64,000 nt of DNA from a virus. The stretch lies in IMG/VR virus record IMGVR_UViG_3300049596_001007, positions 22,021 to 86,020 of that record; one strand, 5' to 3'. This document shows positions 14,846 through 42,408 of this stretch, one piece after another. The notes under the pieces were generated by a model. The model saw only the letters and a list, made by a program, of their open reading frames with translations. It was not told the origin of the DNA and searched no databases. Each line of letters begins with the position of its first letter. Position 1 is the first letter of the stretch. The position numbers and the translations under genes are program-made.

Positions 14846-14855
14846 TGGGAGCCCA

Positions 14856-18168: not shown

Positions 18169-18193
18169 GATACACTATTTTAAGAAAAAGAAC

Positions 18194-26659: not shown

Positions 26660-27910
26660 TTAGCCTTGCTTATTCGCATACCAGGTTTTCTTAACAGTCT
26701 GGCGGCTAAATCCTTTGTCAGTATCAATCAGCCACTCTCTGTTACCAATGAGTTCGCCCTGCGGTCCGCTTGGCTGACCGTCTAAAGCAGCAACTGCTGC
26801 TTGACCAATCCAATTAGCGGCCTGTACTGCAACGGCTTTGCCCCATGTTGCTCCCAGTGCGGAATACGTTTTTGCCTTAGAAAATTCCCAGTTGTCTGGA
26901 AGACCTTGAATGCGGGCGGCTTCTCTGTGTGTAATTCTTCGTTGAAGCGTTGGATGTACGATGTGATCAAGCGCGCCGCCTGTCATCACGTGGCACCACG
27001 AGTCGCCGTTCCAGCGGCAAGGCATAGAAAATCCCATGTAAAAATCTTTAGCACGGATCTTTTCTTCTTGACCAAGCCAGGCTTGTGGGAACCTATCGCC
27101 GTTGCGGTCAACAGCTTCACGAAGCGCTTTGTTGATCGGCATCATTGGCTTCCATCCGTCGTTGCCGAGGATGTCAAAGATTTCTTGAATTCTCTGGGAA
27201 TCCAAGTTGTTCTTATTCATGTGGCCATCAACAACGCCGCTTGCGTTGCGCAAGTGTTTTACGTACTTGGATGGCTCCGAAACGTATCGCTGTGCGTCCC
27301 ATGTGATCTCAAGATCAGCTAAGTCACCGATTACATCCATCATTGTTGGCATTTCAGCGGGAGCAATTGCTTGAGCGCCAAACGGCATTCCTTTTTCAAC
27401 AGCAGTCCAGAAGTACCGCGCTCGGTACGAGAATCCACCGACCTGAAGGTTATTCATTTTTACATGATACAGGTCATACTCTTTGCCAGACAGTTCTTCA
27501 ACCATGTCGCGGTACTTAACCATCGTGTCACGGCCTTGCGTGTACGCCTGCTGAACACACTCAAAGATGATCATTTTTGGTTTGATCCGTGCCGCGTACT
27601 TCATGAACGCGACTGTGTGCTCGTGTGCTTTTGCGTCGGCACCTCGGTTTGCTGGGCCTGACCATACGGACCAGCCCGAACACGGTGGACAACCCAGCAC
27701 TACATCAGCTTTTACATCAGGCCATTCATTTGGGTCGTCAGAAAAGAATGAACTCCAATTGTCTCCAAGATGGTGCCTGTTCAACTCTGCAACAGGGTTG
27801 CCAAAATTAAGCGTCCCTGTTCTGATATTCATTTCCATTCCAGAGTTTACAAACCCAAGACTCATGAAAGCTGCAAGTCCATTGCAGTCTGCGAATGTGT
27901 ATTTTGCCAT
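26660..27910 (-). CDS. DNA (cytosine-5) methyltransferase
   Basis: A 416-residue enzyme with the C5-methyltransferase motif order. Motif I is degenerate (FADCNGLAAFMSLGF). The catalytic motif IV is GCPPCSGWS with Cys77. Motif VI is FECVQQA (Glu117, with ECV in place of ENV), motif IX is RITHREAARIQGLPDNW, and motif X is ALGATWGKAVAVQ. It transfers a methyl group from SAM to carbon 5 of cytosine in DNA; the target site cannot be read from sequence. It may protect phage DNA from restriction. No restriction enzyme is adjacent, so it acts alone. A GGAGA ribosome site precedes the ATG. Confidence 0.85.
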   Translation of the reverse strand: MAKYTFADCNGLAAFMSLGFVNSGMEMNIRTGTLNFGNPVAELNRHHLGDNWSSFFSDDPNEWPDVKADVVLGCPPCSGWSVWSGPANRGADAKAHEHTVAFMKYAARIKPKMIIFECVQQAYTQGRDTMVKYRDMVEELSGKEYDLYHVKMNNLQVGGFSYRARYFWTAVEKGMPFGAQAIAPAEMPTMMDVIGDLADLEITWDAQRYVSEPSKYVKHLRNASGVVDGHMNKNNLDSQRIQEIFDILGNDGWKPMMPINKALREAVDRNGDRFPQAWLGQEEKIRAKDFYMGFSMPCRWNGDSWCHVMTGGALDHIVHPTLQRRITHREAARIQGLPDNWEFSKAKTYSALGATWGKAVAVQAANWIGQAAVAALDGQPSGPQGELIGNREWLIDTDKGFSRQTVKKTWYANKQG

Positions 27911-27977: not shown

Positions 27978-28268
27978 CTAGTCTTTGTGTATTGACCCTA
28001 CTTCAAAGCCGCAAGCTGCGTATCCAGCAATGTCAGTCCAAGTGTCTGGCTGAAATCCAGATTTTGAGGCGTACCTAGCAACTTTTACTGCAACCATAGC
28101 CATGGCAACATCTTCGTTAGTGACTGGAATACCAAAGATCACAGACCAGATTTGCGCAATGCGGTTAAAGTTACTTTCCGGGCCGCCGTACTGAACATCA
28201 CGCTCGCCCGAGACGATGCGCGCTGCTTCTTCGAGGCATACCTGCCGTGGTTGCTTGTTACTCGGCAT
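27978..28268 (-). CDS. DUF6378-family protein
   Basis: A 96-residue protein that shows the DUF6378 pattern well: EAARIVSGERDVQYGGPESN, NRIAQIWSVIFG, KVARYASKSG, and DTWTDIAGYAACGFE. These features suggest an all-alpha fold with conserved acidic, lysine and glycine positions; function unproven, though a nucleotide-pyrophosphatase-like role has been proposed for look-alikes. It overlaps the upstream gene by eleven bases. A shorter, diverged relative is encoded at 5630-6016. Confidence 0.8.
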   Translation of the reverse strand: MPSNKQPRQVCLEEAARIVSGERDVQYGGPESNFNRIAQIWSVIFGIPVTNEDVAMAMVAVKVARYASKSGFQPDTWTDIAGYAACGFEVGSIHKD

Positions 28269-28686: not shown

Positions 28687-29163
28687 TTAAGCTCCCTTTG
28701 CGGGGCAAAGTGCGTCATTACAATTGCTTACGTCGTAGTCATCTAAGGCTCTATTGCACCTTGTACATTTCATTCCATCGTCAAGTACTCGGTAGCCATT
28801 CTTTTGGCGGTCAGCATTTTTTTGCATTTTCTTAAGATATTCCATGTCGAGTTCTTCGTCAGTGGCCCCTGCTGCGCAAAGAATGTTCGCAACAAAGTGC
28901 AAGACATCAACGCACTCTTTGACAATCTCCTTGCGATCTGCGTACGGCTCATCGTGCTGCCACGGCTTCCAAGAAATGGCTTGACGAACTTCGGCAAGCT
29001 CATCGTCAATGGCGAGCATATTCCAACGGATGTACTCAATCAACTCATTAAGGTCGCTTGGCTCGTTACTGTGAAACTTGTCGTAGTTCGCGTTGTACAC
29101 ATCTGTTTGCAGCTTTGTGGTCATTTCAAGCCATCTATTGAATAATACTGACATGGTTGTCAA
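28687..29163 (-). CDS. All-alpha NTP pyrophosphatase (MazG/dUTPase/dCTPase-like) with zinc tail
   Basis: A 158-residue enzyme. The metal-binding pattern ExxE...ExxD of the all-alpha NTP pyrophosphatases is present as ELAE (55-58) and ECVD (83-86), between predicted helices. The last 30 residues add CTRC and a second Cys pair (CNDALC), a zinc-ribbon-like tail. Members hydrolyse dUTP, dCTP or other NTPs to NMP and pyrophosphate; T4 gp56 dCTPase belongs to this superfamily. TTG at 29163 is favoured because AAGGA lies eight bases upstream; ATG 29154 is the alternative. It overlaps the upstream glycosyltransferase-like gene, so it is co-expressed with the sugar cassette. Confidence 0.75.
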   Translation of the reverse strand: MTTMSVLFNRWLEMTTKLQTDVYNANYDKFHSNEPSDLNELIEYIRWNMLAIDDELAEVRQAISWKPWQHDEPYADRKEIVKECVDVLHFVANILCAAGATDEELDMEYLKKMQKNADRQKNGYRVLDDGMKCTRCNRALDDYDVSNCNDALCPAKGA

Positions 29164-30157
29164 TTCTCATTTCCTTGTGTAGTTGTGTAAGTGTTTCGTG
29201 TGGTGTTGGAATAGCTTCAGCATACTCTTCTCGCTGAGCCGCCGCGAGCTCGTACCTATCAATTGAAGACATTTGTTCAATACCCGCGGCTAAATGACTC
29301 CACGAGCTACCTATTGTACCCGCCGTTCGCCATTCGGTAGCAACAGGCGTAAGTGTGTTCATAGCTTGAAAAAATCTAGGAGACCACCAAGTGATCTTAT
29401 CGTCGTGCGGTCCAATTAGCAAACCGACGCTTTTAGATATAACTTCCATTGCTTCAGCATCTCCGTCAGTCTTAACCTGCTTAGTTGCTATGCTTGGGAA
29501 CATAAGATTTTCTGAGGTTTTTACTGCCCAAGAAGACCGCAAAGATTCAACAGCCCACCGATTGCTACGCTCTTTTACTTTAGAAGAATTTTCTATATAA
29601 AAAGAATCAACGTTGATTCCAACAAATGAACTAGTGACGTTTTCTGGAAGTCCTGTAGCTGAAAAGTGTTTAGCGTTCCACGGAAGAGTTGGGTACAGCG
29701 TTGTTGGCCACTTCTCGTTTAGCAAGTAGTCGGCAGCGTCTACTATCTTCGGAAGATCTACCGCTATCTTAAAATCTTTTCTTTTTGAATAGAACTCTTT
29801 GAATAGTCGTGAGCTATAGTCCTTGCTTGCTGACCGAAGACTTGCGTGTACTTTAGACGGCTCGGGAGCATCGATAAATAAGCAAAGTCTTTTGTCATTT
29901 TTCATCGTGTCAATCAGTGACAAGATGCCGTAAGACTTATTCGCTGTAAGACTTAAAACTGGAGCAATTCCAAGCAGCACAGCGTCATATTCTGCAACAC
30001 TGTCAATCGTCCACCCAACCTGCGGATCTTGCCAGACAACTTCAACTCCGCTGTACTCAAGAATTTTACAAATCGCACCCGCAAAAGAAATGTTCTTTTC
30101 GTTTAGCAATTTAGAAGACTGCGGTGCAGTCATTCCAGATATAAGTACTTTTGTCAT
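29135..30157 (-). CDS. GT-B glycosyltransferase-like protein
   Basis: A 340-residue protein that looks like a two-domain GT-B enzyme. The N-terminus KVLISGMTAPQSSK and VEVVWQDPQVGW resemble a Rossmann half. The C-terminal half has SVGLLIGPHDDKITWWSPRFFQAM and TPVATEW, the 'SPR' and 'TPV' pattern of phage GT-B donor sites. The family is divergent and I do not recognise a precise match. It is the last gene of a five-gene operon with a second glycosyltransferase, kinase, phosphatase and nucleotidyltransferase. It may transfer the activated sugar made by that operon. Confidence 0.55.
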   Translation of the reverse strand: MTKVLISGMTAPQSSKLLNEKNISFAGAICKILEYSGVEVVWQDPQVGWTIDSVAEYDAVLLGIAPVLSLTANKSYGILSLIDTMKNDKRLCLFIDAPEPSKVHASLRSASKDYSSRLFKEFYSKRKDFKIAVDLPKIVDAADYLLNEKWPTTLYPTLPWNAKHFSATGLPENVTSSFVGINVDSFYIENSSKVKERSNRWAVESLRSSWAVKTSENLMFPSIATKQVKTDGDAEAMEVISKSVGLLIGPHDDKITWWSPRFFQAMNTLTPVATEWRTAGTIGSSWSHLAAGIEQMSSIDRYELAAAQREEYAEAIPTPHETLTQLHKEMRIDNHVSIIQ

Positions 30158-30930
30158 TAAACTACGCCACCTGACTCAGTGTACGCTGACGGAATTCCAA
30201 CGTCAATTGCTTTTACATCAACAAGCGTCGTACGAGTGCTTAGTATTTGAGACAGATACGGCCCAATCTTGAGCTCGCTTTGCTTCAATTCAGGACTAAA
30301 AGATTCAGCACTTTCCCATGCTTCTGAAAAAACTTGAAGTGCTCTACTTGTATTGAATATGACAGGCCCGCACCAGACTTTAACCATTGTAGATCCCTCC
30401 CAGGCGTCATCTAGTGACACGCTAGACCCTTCAACATAGTCGTATGATTCGTTACCGGTGCTGCGGATACGCGTGAATCTGTGCGCTTGCTGCATTGAAA
30501 CAGTTCTTACGCCTATGGCGTTATCGCCAGTCATAGCGCTGTCTAGCGCCATTTTGACAACAGTGTCTTGGTCCATAATGTTGTCGCTCATTAACAGCAT
30601 AACTGTATCCGATTGGATACATTTAAGTGCAAGCAACGTGGCATGCCCGGGACCAAGCGGTTCTTCTTGAACTACAATTTGTACCCATTGAGAGTAGGCC
30701 GAAAGAACACTAGAAACTTCTTCTTTATTGTGCGGCGACACTACTACATGACACGCAGTGGCGCCAGATGCCGATGCGTACTCTACAGCGTATGCAAGTA
30801 GTGGGATCCCGTTTAGCTCTAGTAAAGGCTTAAAGAATGGCTTAGCAACTCCAGCCATGCGTTGGCCTCGGCCTGCTGCAAGTACTACTGCTTCCAAGGC
30901 CAGTCCTGCTTGGCCCAAATAAAATCCCAA
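30157..30930 (-). CDS. Sugar-phosphate nucleotidyltransferase
   Basis: A 257-residue NTP-transferase-fold enzyme. The signature VVLAAGRGQRM, with the following lysine in KPFFKPLLELNG (31-42), marks the NTP-binding loop of GlmU/RfbA/LicC-like enzymes. HVVVSPHNKEEV and VMLLMSDNI(M) resemble the strand and the metal-binding aspartate. It activates a phosphorylated small molecule (sugar-1-phosphate or phosphocholine) to an NDP or CDP derivative. ATG 30930 overlaps the upstream gene by 46 bases; a TTG at 30897 would leave only a short overlap and also preserves the first motif. Directly follows the HAD gene. Confidence 0.8.
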   Translation of the reverse strand: MGFYLGQAGLALEAVVLAAGRGQRMAGVAKPFFKPLLELNGIPLLAYAVEYASASGATACHVVVSPHNKEEVSSVLSAYSQWVQIVVQEEPLGPGHATLLALKCIQSDTVMLLMSDNIMDQDTVVKMALDSAMTGDNAIGVRTVSMQQAHRFTRIRSTGNESYDYVEGSSVSLDDAWEGSTMVKVWCGPVIFNTSRALQVFSEAWESAESFSPELKQSELKIGPYLSQILSTRTTLVDVKAIDVGIPSAYTESGGVV

Positions 30931-31415
30931 CCCGCTGCATGCGCAGGCGCTTGTCCTTCAATGCGATCGTCAATGTACACACCGCGACTTCCAAGCTTGC
31001 GGAAGACTGCTTCTCTTTCAGTAGTTGAAACTCCGTGGCCAACTAAGTTTTTGTGGTTGAGACCAAGTTCTGTAAGAATTGTGAGTGCCGTGTCATTGGC
31101 TGCGCCGGTGACGTAGTACACCAAGCACGCTGGGTCACGCTCCAACGCTCTAGCAATGTCAGCAAATGGAAGCTTGTGTTTTATCGCTGCGCCATTTTTT
31201 AGTGTTTCTACATATTTTTTAGTTTTTTCCGCATGAAGTTCTCTTGCTTTTTCCAGCGAACCTAAGGCGTTCGGCAACCATGTCTGCCACGGGTGACCCC
31301 AGGCTTGCACAGGCATTTCAACACCAACAGCAGCGTATGATTCGCGAACAAGTTCACGAGAATCAACAAGCACGCCGTCAATGTCAGAGCACCATATTGT
31401 CATCTGTTTTACCAT
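30885..31415 (-). CDS. HAD-family phosphatase
   Basis: A 176-residue enzyme with the HAD catalytic motif DIDGVLVD (Asp11 nucleophile, Asp13), motif II near YYVTGAAND and the acidic motif YIDDR in the C-terminal third. A helical insert between the first motif and the core (about 20-80) is the cap. It probably removes a phosphate from a sugar intermediate. It overlaps the kinase gene upstream and the nucleotidyltransferase downstream. Confidence 0.8.
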   Translation of the reverse strand: MVKQMTIWCSDIDGVLVDSRELVRESYAAVGVEMPVQAWGHPWQTWLPNALGSLEKARELHAEKTKKYVETLKNGAAIKHKLPFADIARALERDPACLVYYVTGAANDTALTILTELGLNHKNLVGHGVSTTEREAVFRKLGSRGVYIDDRIEGQAPAHAAGWDFIWAKQDWPWKQ

Positions 31416-32170
31416 CGTTCTATCGCTCTCTCTAGCACTGTAAGTACTCTTGGTAGTGAGTCAGGAATGTTTCTTAAAACGTAAGGCACAGCGCGCATCA
31501 CGTGAACAACAGCCCATGCCTCACCTACAACAAATAGCCTATCATCATCAATAAGATCTTTTACGTCTGCTCTGCGGTACGCAATCACTCCGTTATTGTA
31601 CTTAGCATCTTCCCAGCCGCATGCACTCTGCAGGATCTTTCCAATGTCAACTGCTGGTGAGTCGGGAACAGTTTCTGTCGCCCGAATTGGGTCAATGAAT
31701 ACTCTTCCGTACCCAGCACGGTTCATTACGTTTTCAGCCGTCGGGTCTCCATGTGAGAGACAGTGCTTCATTCTAAAAGCGCCATCGCCTGCTATTTTAG
31801 CAGAGTTAATTATTTCTTTCTTAGTTGCTTCATCAATATGCTCTGCTAAGTACTTGTCAATCGTGTGTTTCATTTTGGCTTCAAGTAGCTCTTGTGTGTT
31901 AGCTGTAGGCGGAACTACGGCTGGCTGAGTCCACACATGATTAGCAAGCGCGGGAACAATAAATGACGGAGTACTTTCCCAGTACTCGACGTACTCAAGT
32001 TCTTCCATTGTGTACCCGTCGTCTGTGATTGAAAGCACCTGCGGAAATATGACTCCACCATGCTTCATAATCCACTCGCCTTGTTCTCGAGTGCGCTCGA
32101 CTATGCCACCAGACTTTTTTACTATTCCATTAGGAAGTATCTCGACAACAGCCCCTGACAAACCCCTCAC
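31409..32170 (-). CDS. APH/choline-kinase-fold small-molecule kinase
   Basis: A 253-residue protein with the C-terminal catalytic loop of aminoglycoside-phosphotransferase-like kinases: LSHGDPTAENVM (H140, D142, N147), then VFIDPIRA (Asp160). The N-terminal part has GIVKKSGG where the ATP-binding lysine would be. In sugar clusters such proteins phosphorylate choline, ethanolamine or sugars. Its GTG start overlaps the upstream stop. Next to a nucleotidyltransferase it parallels the LicA-LicC kinase and cytidylyltransferase pair and sugar-1-kinase pairs. Confidence 0.75.
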   Translation of the reverse strand: MRGLSGAVVEILPNGIVKKSGGIVERTREQGEWIMKHGGVIFPQVLSITDDGYTMEELEYVEYWESTPSFIVPALANHVWTQPAVVPPTANTQELLEAKMKHTIDKYLAEHIDEATKKEIINSAKIAGDGAFRMKHCLSHGDPTAENVMNRAGYGRVFIDPIRATETVPDSPAVDIGKILQSACGWEDAKYNNGVIAYRRADVKDLIDDDRLFVVGEAWAVVHVMRAVPYVLRNIPDSLPRVLTVLERAIERW

Positions 32171-33414
32171 GAGAACGCGCTTTCAATCATAATTTCAGCG
32201 CTCTTGCGTGGATCATTTCGTGTACGCAAGACTTCTCTGTTGTGACGAGCAATTTCAAGTCTGTCGCTGTCAGAAATCTCTAGACACTTGACAAAAGCTG
32301 CAGTGACTTGGTCAATGATTTCTCGGCCTTCAGGCTTCACGAGCCTCCCTTGTGTTGGAGATCCCTTATACCAATCAAGCACCATCATACGAAACTGCGG
32401 GTCAGATAGATGCTGCGGAACAATACACATGGCGCCAGCATCGGCTGCTTCAAGCGTGGAGTACTCCACAAGTCCTCGAGCAAAGTTATACGCAGTCAAG
32501 TTCATATGAACCTTAAAGCGCGATGCGATTGCAGCAGAATCAGTGTAGTTGCCAAGATAGCGAACTAAGGCTTTTCCTGGAATCCGTGCGTCCCAAGCGT
32601 ACGGAGTAATTATGTTTCCATCCTTACGTCCATCTGGCCTATCCATATCTGCTTGCTTAGCATAGCGGATAACTTTAGCGCCAAAATTGTCGCGAAGTTG
32701 TTCATACGTAATGTACGTCGGTGAAGGACCTAGCCCTACTGAACACGATCCCCATATCTCAACCACAATGTCTTCTGGCAATTGTGCGCCTGCAAGAGCA
32801 ATTAACGGCTGTCCTTTATTGTAGATAAATCTTCCAGATGTTCCTACAATGTTTTCCTGCGGAATTGGGTCATCAATCGCAAAGCTTGGAAGAAACGGCA
32901 TACATCCTTTGATCCATTTCATTCCTTTGAATAGATCATTGCTATCCGTAGCTGAGTCGTCGCTCATTGTGACGAGCATGCTGCCTCTATTTTCAGCCTC
33001 GAGCAAACGTGGAACAAACGGAATTGTGCTCGCTGGGTAAAAAGATCCGTGTAATGAAGTTGTCCACCTAGCTTTTGTGCGAAGAAGCGCATCAACGTAC
33101 TCAGGTATGACATCTTCGCCTGCTTTGATTGCCATTTTGTCGTGCAAAGGGACTTTGATTTCTGGAAGAACAACCATGTCGTATTTATCTAGCAACTCGA
33201 CAAGGTTAGCGCTCTTGACAACTACGTCTGGCGCTTCATTCCACCATCGGCCGCCTGGTTGAGGCTTTCCCCACGATGATCTGACTTTTCCACTCTTTGT
33301 AAAAGAAACTACGTCGCACTCGTGACCTAGTTCTCTAAATCCATATCTCATTCTGAAAGCCCAAGCCGTTGGGCCTTTTACTCCTGGCTCTGGTTCAAGT
33401 ATCGCTACCCGCAT
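32167..33414 (-). CDS. GT4-like glycosyltransferase
   Basis: A 415-residue enzyme, first gene of the sugar cassette. It has AAGGAG five bases before ATG. The N-terminus MRVAILEPEPGVKGPTAWAF begins a GT-B fold, and the donor-side half begins near residue 190 with VGTSGRFIYNKG and a later LVEYSTLEAADAGAMCIV, a variant of the E-x7-E region. The likely activity is transfer of a sugar from the nucleotide made by the downstream genes. The acceptor may be DNA, protein or a host glycan. Its position just after the SSB-like gene, within the replication block, is why I mention DNA. Confidence 0.75.
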   Translation of the reverse strand: MRVAILEPEPGVKGPTAWAFRMRYGFRELGHECDVVSFTKSGKVRSSWGKPQPGGRWWNEAPDVVVKSANLVELLDKYDMVVLPEIKVPLHDKMAIKAGEDVIPEYVDALLRTKARWTTSLHGSFYPASTIPFVPRLLEAENRGSMLVTMSDDSATDSNDLFKGMKWIKGCMPFLPSFAIDDPIPQENIVGTSGRFIYNKGQPLIALAGAQLPEDIVVEIWGSCSVGLGPSPTYITYEQLRDNFGAKVIRYAKQADMDRPDGRKDGNIITPYAWDARIPGKALVRYLGNYTDSAAIASRFKVHMNLTAYNFARGLVEYSTLEAADAGAMCIVPQHLSDPQFRMMVLDWYKGSPTQGRLVKPEGREIIDQVTAAFVKCLEISDSDRLEIARHNREVLRTRNDPRKSAEIMIESAFS

Positions 33415-33458
33415 ACACTCTCCTTGTTTCGCTGTGTCGTATTAGAAATGATATCACG

Positions 33459-33529
33459 GATGCGGCATAAACGGTGTGCCTACACAAATAAATATAAGTG
33501 TAGTAAACACGTTCCGTCTATGCCGCATC
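33459..33529. promoter_or_regulatory. Nested inverted repeat before the sugar cassette
   Basis: GATGCGGCATA (33459-33469) pairs perfectly with TATGCCGCATC (33519-33529). Inside, ACGG (33471-33474) matches CCGT (33514-33517) and TACAC (33481-33485) matches GTGTA (33498-33502). On the minus strand the inner loop contains TTATATTTAT, which could be a -10 box. The 70-base element lies between the SSB-like gene and the glycosyltransferase. It may be a terminator plus promoter with operator arms, or an RNA structure. Confidence 0.55.
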
Positions 33530-33556
33530 ACACGACAAACTCCTATGATCTAGTGA

Positions 33557-34138
33557 TCAGAAAGGAGCGACTGGCGGTGTGTTGATGTCTACTGGTGCTG
33601 CTGCTGGAGCAGGAGCTGCTGCAACTGGTGCCGGTGCAACTGCAGGAGCAGGCGCTGGGGCCGGTGCTGGAGCAGGAGCCGGTGCAGGGGCTGGAGCAGG
33701 AGCTGCCGCCGCTGCAATAACAGGTGCTGACGCAACTGCACTGTAGTATGACTTGATTTCATTCTTCTTTTGACCCTGCCAAGTGCGTGACCCAATTTGC
33801 GCACGGAATGTGCGTCCCTTGAGTGCTTGCTCAATTTGAGCGTTGGTTGGGCTTGTTGCGAAGAAATCGCGGTTAAGACCAAGCGCATTCATTTTGCGGA
33901 AAAAGATTCCAAGCGCAGTTGGGTTGTCGGTTGAGACAACCAAGTTGTCCCAGACGAGACGCTTCATGTGGGCGCCTGTCTGAACCTGTGCTTTAACTGC
34001 GAACATTGTTTTTCCTGATTGCGTTGTCTTTGCGACGCCTTCTACGATTGCAAGATCGTAGTCACCGTCTGGAAGTGGATCATAGCTGCCGACATCGCCA
34101 GCTTCTTTAACTAGGTCTCCCCAATTGAGTGTACTCAT
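33557..34138 (-). CDS. Single-stranded DNA-binding-like protein with Ala-Pro tail
   Basis: A 193-residue protein. The first 130 residues resemble the phage DUF669-type ssDNA-binding domain, with LPDGDYDLAIVE, KTMFAVKAQVQTG and a beta-rich end. The next 55 residues are an almost pure Ala-Pro repeat, and the last residues are PPVAPF rather than the acidic DDxIPF tip of bacterial SSB. It is the first gene after the RecA-like ATPase and nuclease, so a role in replication or recombination is likely. Confidence 0.65.
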   Translation of the reverse strand: MSTLNWGDLVKEAGDVGSYDPLPDGDYDLAIVEGVAKTTQSGKTMFAVKAQVQTGAHMKRLVWDNLVVSTDNPTALGIFFRKMNALGLNRDFFATSPTNAQIEQALKGRTFRAQIGSRTWQGQKKNEIKSYYSAVASAPVIAAAAAPAPAPAPAPAPAPAPAPAPAVAPAPVAAAPAPAAAPVDINTPPVAPF

Positions 34139-34168
34139 GGTATTTACCGTGTCTTTCTGTGTTTGTTG

Positions 34169-34930
34169 TTATTTGGTTTCTGAAGCAGGACGAGGCCCAA
34201 AGACGATGTCAAGCATCGCCTCTATGCCTAAGTTCTGTTGTTCTACTACTTTTCCAAGCCTACCCTGAACTCGCTCACCAGCTTCGTACTGGTTGGTGCG
34301 CTCAACGTGCATCCTACGTGCTTTTATTGGAAGCTGCGTAGGATCTGGGTTTGGAAATTCCTCAACGGTGATAGCGCCAAGGATGTCGTAGAAATACGGG
34401 GCTTGAATTGCAAGTTGTCCTTGCAAGTATGGACGGTATCTGCCGTCTTGCCCTTGTCGTGCCATCGCTGTCAATACGACGGCTTCGAGAGGATTAGTAG
34501 CGTGCATTGTAAGGTCACGGAGATCTCGAAGCAACGCGCCCATGTGACGAAGAAGCTCGCCCCACTGTTGCATTTGCATTTGATTCTTTCCAGCAATGTT
34601 ATCAACGCACTTTACTTGAAGCTCAGATACTGAGTCAATAATCAACGACTTAAACTGATGCTTGCCAAGTTGCAACCACTGGTACGCTTTGATAACAGTG
34701 TCGTATTCAATTACGTTTACGACGCATGTGTCCCATGTTCCGTCTGCGACAGGCGGCTCTTCTCGTAGTGGGTCCCAATACTTGACATTGATGGGAAGGA
34801 ACCTGTGTCCACCCTCTACGTCAAGCATCAGTCTTGGGTACGGTGCTGTCACCGCAAATGTAGACTTACCTACCTTAGATTCTCCGTAGACCATCATGGT
34901 CAATGAACGTTGTACTCTTGACATTGTCAC
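34169..34930 (-). CDS. RecA-like/Sak4-type AAA ATPase
   Basis: A 253-residue ATPase with Walker A YGESKVGKST (15-24) and Walker B SLIIDSVSE (94-102). This size and layout match the Sak4/AAA_24 group of phage single-strand annealing or RecA-like recombinases. It precedes the SSB-like gene, a typical pairing because the two act together in recombination. Overlaps the nuclease gene by four bases. Confidence 0.8.
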   Translation of the reverse strand: MTMSRVQRSLTMMVYGESKVGKSTFAVTAPYPRLMLDVEGGHRFLPINVKYWDPLREEPPVADGTWDTCVVNVIEYDTVIKAYQWLQLGKHQFKSLIIDSVSELQVKCVDNIAGKNQMQMQQWGELLRHMGALLRDLRDLTMHATNPLEAVVLTAMARQGQDGRYRPYLQGQLAIQAPYFYDILGAITVEEFPNPDPTQLPIKARRMHVERTNQYEAGERVQGRLGKVVEQQNLGIEAMLDIVFGPRPASETK

Positions 34931-35910
34931 TCGTTTCCTTTTAGCTCTGTTGGTTTGTAGTAACCGTACGGGTCATCGACCACATACAATTCGGCAATTG
35001 CTTGTTCGGCGGCGCTTCCGTCGTCAAACAGTGGGCAAATGGCGAAGAATTGGCATTTCCACTTACAGTCTCGGCTAGGCCGAGGATACGCTACGTTGTG
35101 ATGGTCTTGGCCATCATCAAGCGCTTTGCGCACTATAAGCATGTCACGAACCGTGCCATGTATTCGCGACCAGAATGATCTGAGAGCGAATGTGTTATGC
35201 CGAACTTCAATTTGCTCGTAGAAAGGAGGCTTTGCGTTAGCAGTACGCTTCACTTTCTTGAGCATTGTAAATATACCGCCTTCGCTGCGCTCTCCTTCAG
35301 CGTTTTGTGCAGCTTCAAGAAGCATGTACGTCAAGATTTGTTCGTTCATGTGCGCAAGAGATGCGAACTCAGTGAACGATCCGCCAACTGTCTTGAAGTC
35401 TCTAAACATGCGTACTCCATCGCCTTTGCGACGGACTCGCATATCGAGCTTTCCTTGAAGTATCACTTCACCATCAAACATCGGCATCGCAATAATCTCT
35501 TCAGTAGAAATCATCTCGAGTTCTGCGTCAATGCCGTTCTCGTCTACCCATTGAAGGTATCCTTCGAGCATAATGCGGCCAAGCTCGGCTTCAGTGTCTA
35601 GATCCATAGTGTCACGGAAGCTATCAATCAACAACTGCTTGTCACGAGCAACAAGCGTTGCGTGCGCGTCAAGAAGAGGAGTGTCTGTTGAGTAGTACAT
35701 ATCAAGAGCGCCGTGAATTCTAGAGCCAAGTGCAAGAGCACCAGTGAAGTTAGTGCTTTGTGGTTGAAGCCTACGATAGTAGTTAAGCCACCACTTACGA
35801 CGGCAATCTTTAAATGTCTGGATTTCTGAGTTAGAAATCTTTAGTGGTTTCTTTATTCCAATTTCTACTGGAACACCCATAACACCATCAGTGACGTTAA
35901 ACTCTGTCAT
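34927..35910 (-). CDS. PD-(D/E)XK nuclease, Cas4/RecB-like
   Basis: A 327-residue nuclease. It has ISNSEIQTFKDCRRKWWLNY at the start (a Cas4/RecB beginning with a Cys), a Glu/Asp core around VILQGKLDMRVRR and FRDFKTVGG (the D-E-K triad), and a late cluster CKWKCQFFAICPLF giving four cysteines that may hold a Fe-S cluster. It probably processes DNA ends in recombination. It overlaps the helicase gene by one base and the ATPase gene by four. Confidence 0.8.
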   Translation of the reverse strand: MTEFNVTDGVMGVPVEIGIKKPLKISNSEIQTFKDCRRKWWLNYYRRLQPQSTNFTGALALGSRIHGALDMYYSTDTPLLDAHATLVARDKQLLIDSFRDTMDLDTEAELGRIMLEGYLQWVDENGIDAELEMISTEEIIAMPMFDGEVILQGKLDMRVRRKGDGVRMFRDFKTVGGSFTEFASLAHMNEQILTYMLLEAAQNAEGERSEGGIFTMLKKVKRTANAKPPFYEQIEVRHNTFALRSFWSRIHGTVRDMLIVRKALDDGQDHHNVAYPRPSRDCKWKCQFFAICPLFDDGSAAEQAIAELYVVDDPYGYYKPTELKGNE

Positions 35911-37703
35911 TAAATCCCTGCCTTTTCGTCTCGTAGCATTTTCATTAGCTGTGCCTTGTCTCTTACGATATTCTCGAAGTTGTCAGCTTTGCTGTCAAGC
36001 ACTTGAATAACTCGTTCTTCAATAGTTCCTTCGGTAACATAGTCCATAATGACGATGCTGTCGTGTATTTCGCTACCGATGCGGTGTACACGGTCAAGAG
36101 CTTGCTTGTAGTCAACCAGTGACCAAGGACGCTGAAGCATTACGAGCCTGCGAGCTGCTGTAAGCGTGATGCCGACACCACCAGCCTGGGCTGTAAATAG
36201 GATCCACTTAATCTTTCCAGACTGAAAATCATCAACCGCTTGTTGACGTTCGTCTTCATTCTGCGCACCTGTGATCAATCCGTGCGGGATTTTAGCTTTT
36301 GTCATTGCTGTGCTGAGAAGCTCAATGAGCTGCCGCGATACTGCGCAAACTGCTACAGAGTCATCGCCGAAGTCGCCACTTGAAATGTCATCCATAAGCG
36401 CATCAACTTTGCATGAAGGCTCAGATAGCAGTACTTTCATTTGGCCTGTCAATTCGTCTATATCTATAGAAGCGAAAGAGCTAGCAAATTGAAGCAAGCG
36501 TGTTGTCTGCGTAAGCGGACTTGGCGCAACTACTGCTTCGCCAACCTCGAGCTCAGCAATCATTGTATCGCGCATTTGCTGATATGCTTTCTTTTGCTTA
36601 GTTGACATCTCAACGTCACGGCGTTCGCGTAGGACCGGCGGAAGCCATGGAAGCACTCGTGCTTTAAGCATTCTGCGCATGCGAGGATGCACTCCAGCGT
36701 AGAACTCATCGTTCATGTGCGGCTTTACGCCGATGACAATCATTCCCCCAAAAGCGTTAAGCATTGTGTCAACCATACGATCAATCCATCGCGTCTTGCT
36801 AGGCCATTCAGTTGGCGATAGCCAGTGAAGAATTGCCCAAAGGTCAAGTACGTTGTTTGCAATTGGTGTACCAGTCATCGCATACCGAATGTCTGCGTTG
36901 CCAGTGGCTGCCCACAGAGCACGAGTTTGTTTTGACTTAGGTTCTTTAGACCTGTGAATTTCGTCAGCTACTACGGCTTTGAAATCAATTTTATTCAGCT
37001 CGCGTAAGTGGACTTCACAGCGGTTTTCAGTTACTTTTTCATCGTGACCGCCACACTCTGGGCATCGCGCCAGAGCGACTGAACCGTACGGTGCTAGGCG
37101 AGAGTGGCCGCGGAGGGATTCCCAGTTAATAACGAATACATCAGCTTCTGTCTCAAGCTGCGCTCGGCGCTGCGATGCAGATCCAGAGATCACTTGAACC
37201 TTTACGTCTGGCCACCACATCGCAAACTCACGCTTCCAGTTTTTCTTTAGCGTGTTTGGGCAAACGATAAGAGCAGGAAATACTTGCTCAGTTTCTTTAA
37301 GCTTTTTTAAAGCACGGATTGCCTGTGCTGTTTTACCAAGGCCAGGCTCATCGGCCAGTAACGCACGGCGTGCTTGCGAAAGAAATGCAACTCCAGCGCG
37401 CTGGTGAGGATACAAATCTTCGTCGCCTTCGTACGTATCTAAGTCTCGTAGTTCGTTTGCTGGCGTGACTCGTATAGCAAGCTCGTTGCCTGCCCACGCA
37501 GCTAACCGTGGGCCAATTTCTAAATCAGACTTAAACACTGACCTAAGAGCCAAGCATGTTGTCCAACCTAAAGGAGCTCGCCACGCTTGATCTCCAGCAT
37601 TCCATGTCGCGCCAGGAATACTCTTGCAGAGTTCCTTATAGCGCCATTCTGTCTCAATTCGGATGTGCTCGCCCGACTCGTTGAGCTCGACTGCTACTGG
37701 CAC
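35910..37703 (-). CDS. SNF2-type DEAD-box helicase
   Basis: A 597-residue superfamily 2 helicase. The start is GTG 37703 with GAGAGG upstream. After an N-terminal domain of about 95 residues come motif I ADEPGLGKTAQ (117-127), motif II ADEIHRS near 247, and the second RecA-like lobe with QAGGVGITLTAA, LQRPWS, DRVHRIG (motifs V/VI). Between motifs I and II is an insert with CPECGG and a further Cys and His, likely a zinc finger. SNF2-like helicases in phages remodel or unwind DNA in replication or repair. Confidence 0.88.
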   Translation of the reverse strand: MPVAVELNESGEHIRIETEWRYKELCKSIPGATWNAGDQAWRAPLGWTTCLALRSVFKSDLEIGPRLAAWAGNELAIRVTPANELRDLDTYEGDEDLYPHQRAGVAFLSQARRALLADEPGLGKTAQAIRALKKLKETEQVFPALIVCPNTLKKNWKREFAMWWPDVKVQVISGSASQRRAQLETEADVFVINWESLRGHSRLAPYGSVALARCPECGGHDEKVTENRCEVHLRELNKIDFKAVVADEIHRSKEPKSKQTRALWAATGNADIRYAMTGTPIANNVLDLWAILHWLSPTEWPSKTRWIDRMVDTMLNAFGGMIVIGVKPHMNDEFYAGVHPRMRRMLKARVLPWLPPVLRERRDVEMSTKQKKAYQQMRDTMIAELEVGEAVVAPSPLTQTTRLLQFASSFASIDIDELTGQMKVLLSEPSCKVDALMDDISSGDFGDDSVAVCAVSRQLIELLSTAMTKAKIPHGLITGAQNEDERQQAVDDFQSGKIKWILFTAQAGGVGITLTAARRLVMLQRPWSLVDYKQALDRVHRIGSEIHDSIVIMDYVTEGTIEERVIQVLDSKADNFENIVRDKAQLMKMLRDEKAGI

Positions 37704-37790
37704 CTGTTTCCTCTCGTCATTTTGATATGTGTCACTGTATCATATACTAAGACAAATATGTCATAGTTTTGCAATTTATTTTCTTAGTAT
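37704..37790. promoter_or_regulatory. Short AT-rich gap with a dyad
   Basis: The gap between the helicase and the resolvase contains the 12-base dyad GACAAATATGTC at 37751-37762 and, on the minus strand, a TATATGATAC that could be a -10 box for the helicase. A repressor-operator arrangement is possible. No gene is seen. Confidence 0.35.
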
Positions 37791-38258
37791 CTATTGAAGT
37801 AGTCTAAGAGGTGTCCAACCGTTTTTTGCTAGGAATAGCAGACCGTGGCGTATGGCGTCTAAAGCGTGTCCTCCACCACCAACATGCCAGTACCCTAGTT
37901 TCTTTAACGCTTCATTTGGAAACATTCTTTTGGCATCTGACGGGTTTTGATACTTCAGATCTATATCTTTCATTCCACAGTCGCGCATTATCTGCTTAAG
38001 AACTCCAATTTGTTCTAGAGAGTAGGGTGCCTGCGAGTTTCTCACTGTTTGAGCGTTTATTGTAAACCGCTCGCATACTATTTCTATATTGCAGTTGCCT
38101 GCTGCGTACTCAGCAATGGCCTGTCTAAGAGGCTGCGCGTATTCCTCTGGCTGATACTCGCCTGACCACAGCAGTACTGGCTCTTCTCCTTGCGCAATGC
38201 TAAATGCGCACATTCCACTTGCCTTCCCTGGGTCTACAGCTATTACTACTCTTTTCAT
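37791..38258 (-). CDS. RuvC-like Holliday junction resolvase
   Basis: A 155-residue enzyme of the RNase H fold. Catalytic residues appear as VDPGKASGM (Asp9), VCERF (Glu63) and GGGHALDAIRHG (His131, Asp134, His138), the phage RuvC pattern. It resolves branched DNA before packaging or during recombination. It overlaps the polymerase gene by one base. Confidence 0.8.
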   Translation of the reverse strand: MKRVVIAVDPGKASGMCAFSIAQGEEPVLLWSGEYQPEEYAQPLRQAIAEYAAGNCNIEIVCERFTINAQTVRNSQAPYSLEQIGVLKQIMRDCGMKDIDLKYQNPSDAKRMFPNEALKKLGYWHVGGGGHALDAIRHGLLFLAKNGWTPLRLLQ

Positions 38259-40081
38259 CAGTACTTATCCCCCCAATTTTCAAGTGGACCGTCAACGTCT
38301 GCTGTTAAAGGAACAGCCCAGCCTTCGGTTGTTGTCATGCATTCTTTTACAATACGTTTGATTTCTTCAGCATCTTTGCGTGGTGCATTGAGCACTATTT
38401 CGTCGTGAACAGGAACGATAAGCAGCTCTGTAAGATCCGCTTGATCCAACTTAATGAGGTTGCTCTTGAACACCTCTGCTGCTCCACCTTGAATTAGGTA
38501 GTTGACTAAGGTGTATACGCGGTTATCGTCGCATGGAAGTCTACGCCCAGTCCATGTGTACACGTAGCCTTGGCCTTCAGCTCTAGTCCTCCGCATACCG
38601 ACATCTTCAATTTGTTTTTGGAAATGCGACATGCCGGGGAACCTGCTATCAAAAGCGTCTGAAGTATGCTTCATCTGCGCCTCGTGCACTCCAGCAGTTA
38701 GCGCCTGCTTTGCGACGCCTGCTCCATATAGTCGCCCGTACACCATGCTCTTAATAAGCCCACGTCGTTTGTCTGACTTCTGCATTTCAGGATCTGCGTA
38801 AACCTCACGACCGATTTCAGTAAAAGGATCTGATCCAGTGGCGTCTGCCAGATGGAAAAGATTAACTAAGTTCTCATCTTGAGACAGACTTGCAAACATT
38901 CTAAACTCAACCTGGTCAAGGTCGCTTGTGACAATCACATGGTCATCATCTTTTGGAATAAACGCGCTACGGACTACATTGTCGCCTTTTGGAAGAGTCT
39001 GTAGGGCAGGACTCGTAATAGACATACGACTTGTCCTAGCACCAAGTGTTCTAACAGATGGATGAACGAAGCCGTTGACGTTGTCAGTAATGAAATTAGA
39101 AAAATAAGTATTGGCCAGTTTGTCGGCTTTTCGTTGCTTCAAGCACGTGTCGGCTAAATTGGTTATTTCTGGCGTAGTGTCAATCATCAGCATTCTGAGC
39201 TGATCTTTAGTGCAAGACTTCTGGCCAGTAGGAGTGTACTCACTAATTTCTGCGCCAAGACTCTCAAACAAACGAACTAACTGCTGGTTGCTTGTAATTG
39301 ACACTCCACCATATTGCTGCTTAGCCCAGACTTTGACCGAGTCTGCGTACGCTGTCAGCTCTTCGTATTTCTTCTTTGAGTAGTCTAAGTCAATTCGTGC
39401 GCCGTTTAGTTCCATGCGTGTGACAATTCGTCGTGTCTGCATTTCAAGTTCATACGGTTTTGAGTACGCAGCACCAGGGCCGCACTTTTCGTAAAACTGT
39501 TCCCAGAGACGAGTAGTCAATACGCAGTCAAGCGCGCCATACGACCAATATGGTTGGAAGTTAATAGGCACAGTTCCCCATGTCCAACCATTCTTTGCTA
39601 GTTCAGTGTCTAGCGTGTCCTGAAGAGCAACTGCACGGCTATCAATGTGCAATGCTGCAAGACGCTTGAGAGCGCCAGATCCAAGTGGGTCAATAATATG
39701 AGCCATAATCATCGTGTCATGCGCACGGTGCCAAGGTAGTTCCCAACGAGACTGAACAGCAAACCATCGCGCTTCAAACGCAATGTTGTGGCAGATGATA
39801 GGACCGTCAAACTTATCCATGCCTTCGTAGAAGACACCTTTCCATTCGTCCCACGGAATAGACCAACCTTGCTCACCGTCGCCAACCTGGACTAAACGAA
39901 GACGACCATGCCATGGAGAAAATGCGTGGTCCCGAGGATTGCCTGGAAGCTCGCCAGTTTCAGTGTCAACGGCAAGCGCGTTGTGCGGACGCCGCTGGCT
40001 CAACCACTCAAGAAACTGAGTAGCTTTTTCGGCCGAGTCTACTAAGTGTAGTTGTACGTTTGATAAGTCTGTTGTTGTCAT
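38258..40081 (-). CDS. polA: Family A DNA polymerase with 3'-5' exonuclease
   Basis: A 607-residue replicative polymerase. The exonuclease domain has AVDTETGE (Asp39, Glu41) and HNIAFEARWF. The polymerase domain has motif A TSDLDQVEFRMFA near 387, motif B RRGLIKSMVYGRLYG near 445 and motif C VPVHDEIV near 557. The motif B position equivalent to E. coli Phe762 is Tyr, as in T7. It lacks a 5'-3' exonuclease domain. It lies next to the dCMP deaminase and overlaps its gene by four bases. Confidence 0.92.
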   Translation of the reverse strand: MTTTDLSNVQLHLVDSAEKATQFLEWLSQRRPHNALAVDTETGELPGNPRDHAFSPWHGRLRLVQVGDGEQGWSIPWDEWKGVFYEGMDKFDGPIICHNIAFEARWFAVQSRWELPWHRAHDTMIMAHIIDPLGSGALKRLAALHIDSRAVALQDTLDTELAKNGWTWGTVPINFQPYWSYGALDCVLTTRLWEQFYEKCGPGAAYSKPYELEMQTRRIVTRMELNGARIDLDYSKKKYEELTAYADSVKVWAKQQYGGVSITSNQQLVRLFESLGAEISEYTPTGQKSCTKDQLRMLMIDTTPEITNLADTCLKQRKADKLANTYFSNFITDNVNGFVHPSVRTLGARTSRMSITSPALQTLPKGDNVVRSAFIPKDDDHVIVTSDLDQVEFRMFASLSQDENLVNLFHLADATGSDPFTEIGREVYADPEMQKSDKRRGLIKSMVYGRLYGAGVAKQALTAGVHEAQMKHTSDAFDSRFPGMSHFQKQIEDVGMRRTRAEGQGYVYTWTGRRLPCDDNRVYTLVNYLIQGGAAEVFKSNLIKLDQADLTELLIVPVHDEIVLNAPRKDAEEIKRIVKECMTTTEGWAVPLTADVDGPLENWGDKY

Positions 40082-40551
40082 TTGTCCTCGATAGCTAATA
40101 CTTCAATGCCGCACTTTATCAGGTAGTCAATAACGTCGTACGGACGCCGATGCATATCTGCCTGGCGAAGTCGGCATACAACTCGGTATATGCCAGAGTT
40201 AGAAATAAGTTTAGCGCATTGCGTGCACGGTGCGCTTGTTATGTATATAGTTCCAAACTCACTTACAGAGCGGTCTACGTACAAAAGAGCGTTTGCTTCG
40301 GCGTGAATTGCTGGACAGCCGTCGTACATATTGTCTAGTGGAGTTTTGCCCTGAGCTCGTTCGCACCAGTTCATACAGTCACCAGCTTCTGGCCAAGTAG
40401 CCGCCGGCCCGTTGTATCCAGTTGACACAATGTGCTGATCGTGAGAAACAATGACAGCGCCCATCTGAGCGCGAGAGCATCTAGAGCGTTTGCTTATAGT
40501 TTCGGCTACAGCGAGCCATGTCTCGTCCCACGAAGGACGTGTGTCCGTCAC
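40078..40551 (-). CDS. dCMP deaminase
   Basis: A 157-residue zinc enzyme with HAEANALLY (His83, Glu85) and SAPCTQCAKL (Cys109, Cys112), the cytidine deaminase zinc site; a further His/Cys-rich segment near 60 (DCMNWCERAQG) resembles the second zinc or effector site of dCMP deaminases. It converts dCMP to dUMP. Start is GTG 40551 overlapping the small gene upstream. Confidence 0.88.
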   Translation of the reverse strand: MTDTRPSWDETWLAVAETISKRSRCSRAQMGAVIVSHDQHIVSTGYNGPAATWPEAGDCMNWCERAQGKTPLDNMYDGCPAIHAEANALLYVDRSVSEFGTIYITSAPCTQCAKLISNSGIYRVVCRLRQADMHRRPYDVIDYLIKCGIEVLAIEDK

Positions 40552-40724
40552 TATTGGTCGTCCTGACTGTGTCTAATTGCGTCACTAACTGCGGATGTCA
40601 TTATTTTAGAAACCAGCTCGAGAGCTTCTCGTCTAGAGAATCCTGCTTCTTTAAGTGTTTCATACAACTCATGCATGCTTACCGCAGCATCTTTCATCGG
40701 TGTTGAGTTGAACTTGTCGTCCAT
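40551..40724 (-). CDS. Small helical protein
   Basis: A 57-residue protein starting at ATG 40724, with AAAGGA eight bases upstream and three bases after the previous stop. An earlier in-frame start overlaps the upstream gene and has no site. The helix SRREALELVSKIMTSAVSDAI resembles a UBA-like or small regulatory helix-bundle segment. Function unknown. Confidence 0.55.
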   Translation of the reverse strand: MDDKFNSTPMKDAAVSMHELYETLKEAGFSRREALELVSKIMTSAVSDAIRHSQDDQ

Positions 40725-40726
40725 AT

Positions 40727-41581
40727 TTATTTTCCTTTGTTCTTGTCTATTGCTTTGATCATTGCGTCTGCGTACCACCGCTCGGCTGGTGATAAACGTT
40801 CAAGTGTGTCTGGGTGCGTAGTTGCGTACAACGCTAAAGATGCAGAAGCTTCGACTTCACGCCACGATCTTCCTGTTATTTCTGGCGGTACTTCAACATT
40901 GCTTGTTTTTCTAAGAGCGTCCGCTGCTTCATAGTTGTTTTCGTAAATGTGAAGAGAACCGACGTGGTGGGCATAGGCACCTGGCTCAATACCAAGAACG
41001 GAGCACATAGCCAATTGCACTCGTGTGAATTGAAAGAAATCGTATGCGGCGCCAAGCCACACGTCATTTGATCGCATATATACGCTCATGTTAAGCTTGT
41101 TATTGCGGATACGGAACTGATGCAAAATTGTGCAAGGGTAGTCGCGCTTCTTTTCAAGCATGTCACGCTCAGGATTCCAAATAGTGACTACTGCTTGTCT
41201 CGTATCTGGGTCTTTGCGTAGTCTTTCAATCATCACATCGTATTGACCTTTTGTTCTTGTTCCGTACGAGCCGTGAAATAGCCCGTCGTCCTCCGTGTAA
41301 TTGGCAAACTGCGGACCAATGTCAATCACCAATTGCGGAATGCTTAGCCCTGACATCAATTGGCATGCTTCAACAGCACCGATACCTGGAACAGTGCCTC
41401 GGTTTACACCTAAAGGAAGCGCGGCTCTGACGTCTGAAATATAAATAGTAGCATCTTCTATTTCTCTAGTATTCATTCCTCTAGGCGCGACATGCTCGCC
41501 GTGCTTTAACACGTGTTGAACAAGATCAACGTAGCCGTTTACGCCGTCTTCAATCTCAATCGTTTTTACCTTTACATCCAT
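40727..41581 (-). CDS. Thymidylate-synthase-fold enzyme, probable dCMP (hydroxy)methyltransferase
   Basis: A 284-residue enzyme. The catalytic cysteine is in RDYPCTILHQF (Cys150), the phosphate-binding residues in MRSNDVWLG (Arg170, Ser171, Asp173), and the ribose contacts in GSLHIY (His211, Tyr213). At the position equivalent to E. coli Asn177, where thymidylate synthases use Asn to select dUMP, this protein has Asp181 (AAYDFFQF). In T4 dCMP hydroxymethylase the matching residue is Asp179, and the Asn-to-Asp change is known to favour dCMP. I therefore expect dCMP as substrate, with hydroxymethyl or methyl transfer from methylene-tetrahydrofolate. A plain thymidylate synthase is less likely. 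The next gene is a dNMP kinase. Confidence 0.75.
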   Translation of the reverse strand: MDVKVKTIEIEDGVNGYVDLVQHVLKHGEHVAPRGMNTREIEDATIYISDVRAALPLGVNRGTVPGIGAVEACQLMSGLSIPQLVIDIGPQFANYTEDDGLFHGSYGTRTKGQYDVMIERLRKDPDTRQAVVTIWNPERDMLEKKRDYPCTILHQFRIRNNKLNMSVYMRSNDVWLGAAYDFFQFTRVQLAMCSVLGIEPGAYAHHVGSLHIYENNYEAADALRKTSNVEVPPEITGRSWREVEASASLALYATTHPDTLERLSPAERWYADAMIKAIDKNKGK

Positions 41582-41586
41582 TATTG

Positions 41587-42408
41587 CTATATCCTTTCAA
41601 TCTCGGGATTGCCAAGAATTGTGATAAGGCTGGTTAGCCTTCCAACAGACATATTGTTCTGATTGACTACACCAGCGCTTCGCCACACAGTATCTGGCAA
41701 TGACTCAATAAGCGCTTCTTCTGAGCTTCCTTCTGCTGGGAAGCATGGAAGAATGCTGCCATTAGTGTCCCAGCTACCGATGTAAAGAATTTTAGGGTTT
41801 GGAGACCCGATGTACTCGCCAAATTGCGCTAACTTTTTGGCCTCATCGTGTACTTCTTCTGCGCGGTGTATGACATATTGAGCAAGCAAGTCAATGGAGG
41901 CAACGCTGTCAGCGCGAGGAGTCAGTTTGCCAGCAAGACTGAAAACTTCCTGAGAAGTCTGTTCATATAGATCTACGATTTTCTCGAGTTCATCTAGTTT
42001 TACAAAATCATCTCCACGAATAGCCACCCTAGTTTTGATTACATCTAAAGGTTGATAAAGCCAGAATTGCGCAATACCCCGTGACGCCATAAACCACTCT
42101 GTCCAGCGCCAACCAGCTACGCCAAGAAGACCGAAGGCGTCTTTACACGTGTGAGGCCGCTTTACCGGTGCGTATGTTGCTTCGCCCCAATGCCATCTGT
42201 CCGCTACAGCGACGGCCTCAAACCAGTTAATGTTTTCAATCGACATTACCCAATCGTTAAGAACCCACCTGCGAGACTCTTCTTCTGGGCGCCCTTTGTG
42301 GAAACGCGTGATATGAAAGTCGGGGTATCTGTCCGCTAACTGGCGGGAAACCTCGTCTGTAAGAGAGCTTTTGCCAGAGCCGTCTGAGCCTTCTATAACT
42401 ATGAACAT
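41587..42408 (-). CDS. Thymidylate-kinase-like dNMP kinase with C-terminal extension
   Basis: A 273-residue enzyme. The N-terminus FIVIEGSDGSGKSSLTDEV is a P-loop typical of thymidylate kinases, and the ADRWHWGEATY region (about 69-79) forms the substrate side. From about residue 190 an extra domain of about 80 residues begins with YIGSPNPKILYIGSWDTNG and contains DTVWRSAGVVNQNN, which standard kinases of about 210 residues lack. It should phosphorylate dTMP, or a modified dCMP such as the product of the upstream enzyme. T4 has an analogous kinase (gp1). The next gene downstream is the TS-fold enzyme. Confidence 0.75.
   Translation of the reverse strand: MFIVIEGSDGSGKSSLTDEVSRQLADRYPDFHITRFHKGRPEEESRRWVLNDWVMSIENINWFEAVAVADRWHWGEATYAPVKRPHTCKDAFGLLGVAGWRWTEWFMASRGIAQFWLYQPLDVIKTRVAIRGDDFVKLDELEKIVDLYEQTSQEVFSLAGKLTPRADSVASIDLLAQYVIHRAEEVHDEAKKLAQFGEYIGSPNPKILYIGSWDTNGSILPCFPAEGSSEEALIESLPDTVWRSAGVVNQNNMSVGRLTSLITILGNPEIERI

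Follow-up and report, generated by a model that had tools for sequence, protein, structure and literature searches.

Putative hydroxymethylcytosine glycosylation genes and a variable sugar slot in an IMG/VR virus record

Virus record IMGVR_UViG_3300049596_001007 of IMG/VR (86,020 bases) includes a 64,000-nucleotide stretch, from position 22,021 to position 86,020 and here called the window, in which a leftward block of genes raises the question of whether this phage makes glycosylated 5-hydroxymethylcytosine (hmC), as T4 does, and also activates a sugar for it. A preliminary description of the window had proposed such a pathway, and all of the genes that it named are present on the minus strand where it placed them (Table 1), with domain matches for most of them. 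The phage belongs to a group of uncultured freshwater viruses that infect actinobacteria and probably have hydroxymethylated, sugar-bearing cytosine in their DNA. The answer preferred here, at a probability of about 0.62, is that the phage makes its own hmC, that a glycosyltransferase (GT) designated GTA1 attaches a first sugar, and that a second GT, designated GTB, adds a further sugar from a donor supplied by a trio of genes (a kinase, a HAD phosphatase and a nucleotidyltransferase). Glycosylation of hmC in the manner of T4 is already known; new here is the variant with sugar genes borne in a variable slot.

From 42.4 to 26.7 kb, the block begins with genes for a dNMP kinase, a thymidylate synthase (TS)-fold protein, a dCMP deaminase and a family A DNA polymerase, continues with RuvC-, helicase-, Cas4-, RecA- and SSB-like genes (the first three named from homologues in relatives), and after the SSB-like gene consists of GTB, the trio in the order given above, GTA1, an all-alpha NTP pyrophosphatase and, beyond position 28687, genes for a DUF6378 protein and a C5-DNA-methylase-like protein. 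In the proposed pathway, the TS-fold enzyme would make 5-hydroxymethyl-dCMP, which the dNMP kinase would begin to convert to the triphosphate; the pyrophosphatase, a relative of T4 gp56, would destroy dCTP; the polymerase would incorporate hydroxymethylcytosine into the genome; GTA1 would attach the first sugar to the hydroxymethyl group, like T4 BGT; and GTB would add a further sugar, or glycosylate other hmC sites, using a nucleotide sugar that the trio would make from a host sugar phosphate by way of a sugar-1-phosphate. Computation provides the protein families, the fold predictions, the key residues, the order of the genes, the variation of the slot and the joint loss; every substrate in this scheme, the order of its steps, the second sugar and DNA as the acceptor are inferred.

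Nucleotide genes and their joint loss

The TS-fold protein has Asp at the position equivalent to residue 177 of E. coli ThyA, as do T4 gp42 and eight other phage proteins; in the same alignment ThyA and SPO1 gp29 have Asn. The equivalents of Cys146 and Glu58 of ThyA are retained, the protein scores below the cut-off of every NCBIfam thymidylate synthase model, and its best solved-structure matches are two chains of the CMP 5-hydroxymethylase MilA (74.1 and 74.0 bits, residues 31-222). Among 130 fetched TS loci, the Asp177 equivalent is found in 128, the misses being one cut-off sequence and locus L069, in which the frame is broken upstream of the site, and the Cys146 equivalent in 129 (one lacks that place); since the TS scan patterns include the Asp, a fairer count comes from the loci fetched by RecA, 38 of 39, where the miss is again L069. 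Asp also predominates at position 177 in the TS proteins encoded on modified-cytosine contigs, according to passages of the MetaGPA report (PMC8670742).

The pyrophosphatase is 27% identical to T4 gp56 (E 4e-12, single comparison) and both match PF08761, which bears out the likeness noted beforehand and makes it a probable dCTPase/dUTPase. The TS-fold protein, which the preliminary description had called a possible dCMP hydroxymethylase, is now a well supported candidate for that activity, on the strength of Asp177, the gp56 homologue and the joint loss of nucleotide genes in one clade.

This loss was seen in 36 spanning loci, fetched by RecA and not dereplicated, in which the whole region is covered: 24 have the TS gene (TS-plus) and 12 do not (TS-less). 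All 24 TS-plus loci contain the dNMP kinase, deaminase, pyrophosphatase and GTA1 genes, 22 contain a second GT, 21 the methylase-like gene and seven the trio; the dNMP kinase, deaminase, pyrophosphatase, second GT, methylase-like gene and trio are absent from every TS-less locus. The polymerase, which the TS-less loci keep, belongs to the shared replication core. In a quick tree the TS-less loci group together in a single clade (SH-aLRT support 100) that excludes the Gordonia phages and other TS-plus lineages, so that the loss was one event, and a joint loss flanking retained replication genes argues for a single pathway. A search of 11 TS-less records (of up to 134 kb and possibly incomplete) gave no PF00303 match, and five of five TS-plus records matched; one TS-less record, that of L213, has another C5-methylase elsewhere. 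Among 17 IMG/VR records that carry slot genes, nine include the TS gene and the other eight contigs stop before its place, and all 14 GenBank phage records with a GTA1 homologue also have a close TS homologue. The window further encodes a pyrimidine dimer DNA glycosylase, as T4 also does, with homologues in 23 of the 24 TS-plus and none of the 12 TS-less spanning loci.

The gene order of the block recurs in Actinomycetia phage DSL-LC01, in Gordonia phages Phendrix, Sixama, GMA2 and Forza and partly in Micrococcus phage Kurnik, and the block is therefore not a chance grouping. DSL-LC01 (Dishui Lake) and the four Gordonia phages share with the window the Asp177 TS-fold protein, a GTA1 homologue, a gp56-like protein and a methylase-like protein as well, but lack the trio: DSL-LC01 has a UDP-galactopyranose mutase and a GTA1 paralogue, and in the Gordonia phages GTA1 stands with its paralogue and GTB. 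Among GenBank phages, only DSL-LC01 is near to the block in DNA sequence (75% over the helicase). No description of the group as hmC phages was found in the open-access literature: the word "hydroxymethyl" is absent from the DSL-LC01 paper (PMC10611076), and excerpts of the GMA2 paper mention only methylases and glycosyltransferase genes other than those of the slot (orf4 and orf22; PMC4524720).

In the T4 pathway to glucosyl-hmC (gp42, gp56, dCMP deaminase, gp1, BGT and AGT), four components have counterparts in the Asp177 TS-fold protein, the gp56 homologue, the deaminase and the dNMP kinase, and a GT with a predicted BGT-like fold adds to the likeness. Unlike T4, the window has a family A polymerase and a phage-borne trio, and its GTs lie outside T4's PHROGs family. 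The T4-like route put forward earlier holds up for the base and not for the sugar, T4 obtaining UDP-glucose from its host, as stated in passages of a published account (PMC6024577). Enterococcus phage VFW resembles the window in having an Asp177 TS-fold gene, with genes for a dUTPase and a beta-glucosyltransferase, and differs in having no trio annotated in the stretch examined; excerpts of a paper on VPE25 and VFW report that VFW cytosine is bisulfite-resistant, i.e. modified, and that the GT of these phages is about 40% identical to T4 BGT (PMC4999554).

Matches to two other kinds of modification enzyme were sought. The Tet_JBP dioxygenase model (PF12851) matched nothing in the window's own record or in 16 related records, and no control genome either; carbamoyltransferases of the 5-carbamoyloxymethylcytosine pathway (PF02543/PF16861) were absent from the scanned block proteins, the RuvC-, helicase- and Cas4-like genes lying outside the scan.

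Glycosyltransferases and the variable sugar slot

Neither GTA1 nor GTB matches any Pfam model up to E = 1. An AlphaFold model of GTA1 (47 aligned sequences; model confidence, pLDDT, 94.7) was placed by VIA-align closest to T4 BGT (1nzd, Z 17.4, root-mean-square deviation 3.9, 297 residues aligned), followed within 1 Z by the selenosugar synthase SenB (16.6), by T4 AGT (14.7) and by varied GT-B enzymes, and the top Foldseek matches were a macrolide GT, a phage GT (9iqz), a chimeric GT and T4 AGT, with TM-scores of just 0.41-0.45. The catalytic Asp100 of T4 BGT (its mutant form is named in the title of 1nzd) lies in LFTDIRLP, to which LFIDAPEP of GTA1 corresponds, and its Asp96 is present in 47 of 47 sequences as matched by motif and position rather than by residue-level superposition. 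T4 BGT matches PHROGs family phrog_7922, to which GTA1 from the window and from L022, L124 and L237 gave no match, and a GTA1/GTA2 profile (GTA2 being a GTA1 paralogue) found no GT among PDB sequences. Sequence homology between GTA1 and T4 BGT was also sought with hhalign and set aside, only a weak stretch being aligned; the predicted fold did better. GTA1 is therefore predicted to work like BGT yet is not filed as a member of its sequence family. The glycosylation proposed earlier draws support from this predicted fold and from the constant linkage.

GTB is a probable GT4-like enzyme, judged from motifs that we take to be GT4-like and a weak match of its profile to MshA, a GT4 enzyme (E 0.056); hhalign found no signal between it and GTA1 or a GT4 protein of the window. 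GTB homologues occur in Kurnik, GMA2 and Sixama. A separate GT4 glycosyltransferase is encoded in the window on the opposite strand, outside the sugar slot.

The kinase is predicted to have an APH/choline-kinase fold (pLDDT 93.3; one of five models 51.4) and resembles APH(2'')-IIIa (Z 15.8) and LicA (14.8); APH(2''), LicA, glucosamine kinase and maltokinase all fall within 1.7 Z of one another, so that the fold matches do not single out one substrate. The HAD protein matches the phosphatase TM_1254 (E 5.7e-4) and retains the motif residues Asp11, Asp13, Thr103, Asp149 and Asp150 in nine of nine sequences. The best matches of the nucleotidyltransferase are models and structures of the GlmU, GalU and RmlA types (best structure 4.4e-10). 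IspD- and MobA-type transferases were also considered as its identity, and were outscored by these models. From these families and from the fixed order of the trio with one GT, we infer that the three enzymes make a sugar donor, and it is on this footing that the phage-encoded sugar activation of the preliminary description stands. According to passages of two accounts, a phage nucleotidyltransferase is presumed or has been demonstrated to activate the sugar of arabinosyl-hmC in RB69 and of pentosyl-cytosine in Thanatos (PMC6024577, PMC12838424). The candidate there is a large bifunctional isomerase and transferase protein, whereas kinase, HAD phosphatase and transferase are separate here and the block has no isomerase-like gene; a bifunctional isomerase-nucleotidyltransferase was not seen, the 257-residue transferase matching NTP transferase models only.

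Among 50,697 phage records, none matched the kinase (E limit 1e-3), the transferase (1e-5) or the HAD protein (1e-2). The order GTB-kinase-HAD-transferase-GTA1 is found, as far as the contigs reach, in 21 IMG/VR kinase loci, some of them on near-copies. As to a bacterial source of the trio, a short-pattern scan of genome contigs, which was not exhaustive, found no relative by the kinase profile; the transferase profile found partial relatives in genome contigs (24-53% identity), mostly Proteobacteria by record title.

The sugar genes occupy a variable slot bordered by the SSB-like gene and the pyrophosphatase gene. Both borders were present in 107 of 187 loci, which were reduced to 49 by joining slots at 95% identity. 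GTA1 is in all 49, accompanied by GTA2 in 31, by a split GTA2 in one (the frame-broken L069), by GTB and the trio, as in the window, in 11, by GTB in one (L101), by GTA2 and a UDP-galactopyranose mutase in one (L106) and by none of these in four; since slot genes served as queries for some loci, these proportions are no census. Wherever the trio is present, GTB accompanies it (11 of 11).

On a core tree built from RecA, Cas4 and helicase sequences (45 of the 49 rows, eight with the trio), the trio requires six changes, barely below the mean of 7.5 with shuffled labels (42 of 500 shuffles were as low), and at least five of the changes are forced by well supported branches. For 42 common rows plus window/L014, six changes on the core tree compare with three on the GTA1 tree, so that the trio is mobile and has followed GTA1 more than the core. 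The trio has moved between phage lineages. A tentative reading, which we hold with less than even confidence, treats the slot as a sugar-identity module open to exchange, in which GTA1, as the constant inner transferase, would cap hmC and lineages would trade whole donor-plus-transferase cassettes (a paralogous GT; a UDP-galactopyranose mutase, for galactofuranose; or kinase, HAD phosphatase, nucleotidyltransferase and GTB, for a phage-made sugar that is not known to occur in DNA), swapping the outer sugar. Host restriction would then face a changing disaccharide on cytosine.

Alternative explanations

Several observations weigh against the proposed pathway. The best thymidylate synthase structure follows MilA by about 1 bit (72.9 bits over residues 116-221), a near tie in which the residue Asp177, not the score, bears the argument. 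The fold evidence for GTB is weak, and the kinase and HAD matches lie under the Pfam cut-offs. The methylase-like gene stands in 21 of the 24 TS-plus loci, and DNA that is fully hmC should offer its product no substrate; this protein keeps the PPC and Glu-x-Val motifs and has after motif I, in nine of ten aligned relatives (Kurnik deviates), the stretch TG(S/T)L(N/D)(F/L)G, which differs from common C5-methylases, and it may make a different use of DNA or cofactor. Finally, the preliminary description would have been contradicted by relatives having the glycosyl cassette and no TS-fold gene: the full cassette is in none of the 12 TS-less spanning loci, and one of its two GTs, GTA1, is in ten. 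In the clade that lacks the TS gene, L213, L237, L241 and L255 keep a GTA1 homologue (at about 11.4-12.4 kb) with its Asp motif. GTA1 can thus serve without phage-made hmC, which argues that in this clade it has, or gained, another acceptor.

That persistence would suit a pathway in which the base is hmC and the cassette glycosylates another target (the host envelope, a virion protein or a small molecule), its linkage reflecting a hot spot near replication genes, as would the cell-wall function that the authors of DSL-LC01 gave to its mutase gene in passages of their paper (PMC10611076). Such a target is unlikely, given that the second GT, trio, pyrophosphatase and TS genes are jointly missing from all 12 TS-less loci, that every TS-plus locus (24 of 24) has GTA1 and that a DNA glucosyltransferase comes first among the fold matches of GTA1; the mutase gene of DSL-LC01 lies in the sugar slot, between the GTA1 homologue and the paralogue, with L106 alike, so that supply of a donor for galactofuranosylation of DNA is no less likely. 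Nor is it probable that the trio makes a non-sugar activated group, such as a CDP-alcohol (compare LicA/LicC), for attachment to the first sugar of GTA1-glycosylated hmC. LicA does rank high among the structures that the kinase resembles, and phosphocholine cytidylyltransferase 1jyk is a weak match of the nucleotidyltransferase (E 7.4e-5), but the latter is far closer to sugar-1-phosphate enzymes, GlmU models included, and a GT-like gene stands beside the trio in every one of its slots. An ordinary thymidylate synthase in an operon for dTTP supply (with dCMP deaminase, kinase and dUTPase), the GTs being unrelated to it, is what all database annotations of the relatives would indicate, and the Pfam and NCBIfam models matched are thymidylate synthases; Asp177, the unreached NCBIfam cut-offs and the loss of the TS gene together with the second GT and the pyrophosphatase make it very improbable.

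Should glycosylation of phage-made hmC be correct, glycosylated hmC would be usual in a common freshwater actinophage group, for which two scans of IMG/VR confirmed at least 571 stretches with RecA relatives and 544 with TS relatives. The slot would also predict sugars new to DNA, galactofuranose perhaps among them, and further DNA glycosyltransferases that could serve as new tools. The core is common to culturable Gordonia phages, which makes the claim directly testable, with the TS-less clade as a natural control.

Gene inventory and other genes of the window

Table 1. Genes of the block and other genes mentioned, with window positions, strand and profile matches (E values)
Feature	Position	Strand	Match
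dNMP (thymidylate-type) kinase	41587-42408	-	PHROGs thymidylate kinase family phrog_761, 3.3e-14; Pfam matches weak
TS-fold protein, probable dCMP 5-hydroxymethylase	40727-41581	-	PF00303 Thymidylat_synt, 1.3e-25
dCMP deaminase	40078-40551	-	PF00383 dCMP_cyt_deam_1, 7.6e-20
Family A DNA polymerase	38258-40081	-	PF00476 DNA_pol_A, 3.4e-56
GTB, probable GT4-like glycosyltransferase, partner of the trio	32167-33414	-	no Pfam match
APH/choline-kinase-fold small-molecule kinase	31409-32170	-	PF01636, 2.4e-4, under Pfam's own cut-off
HAD-type phosphatase	30885-31415	-	PF00702, 4.8e-4, under Pfam's own cut-off
Sugar-1-phosphate-type nucleotidyltransferase, 257 aa	30157-30930	-	NTP_transf_3, 3.8e-14
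GTA1, 340 aa, glycosyltransferase with predicted T4-BGT-like fold	29135-30157	-	no Pfam match
All-alpha NTP pyrophosphatase, T4 gp56 homologue, probable dCTPase/dUTPase	28687-29163	-	PF08761 dUTPase_2, 2.4e-11
DUF6378 protein	27978-28268	-	Pfam
C5-DNA-methylase-like protein, usual neighbour	26660-27910	-	PF00145, 2.8e-23
Pyrimidine dimer DNA glycosylase	26096-26602		PF03013, 8.7e-13
GT4 glycosyltransferase outside the slot	23942-25000	+	PF00534, 2.2e-16
Sodium/hydrogen exchanger	18134-19372		PF00999, 3.7e-33
Flavin-type tryptophan halogenase	14826-16349	+	PF04820, 5e-104
2OG-Fe(II) oxygenase	14264-14845	+	PF13640, 1.8e-12

Elsewhere in the window, this phage genome encodes a sodium/hydrogen exchanger, and a gene for a flavin-type tryptophan halogenase adjoins that for a 2OG-Fe(II) oxygenase; a halogenase-like gene is also present in DSL-LC01 and in L213.

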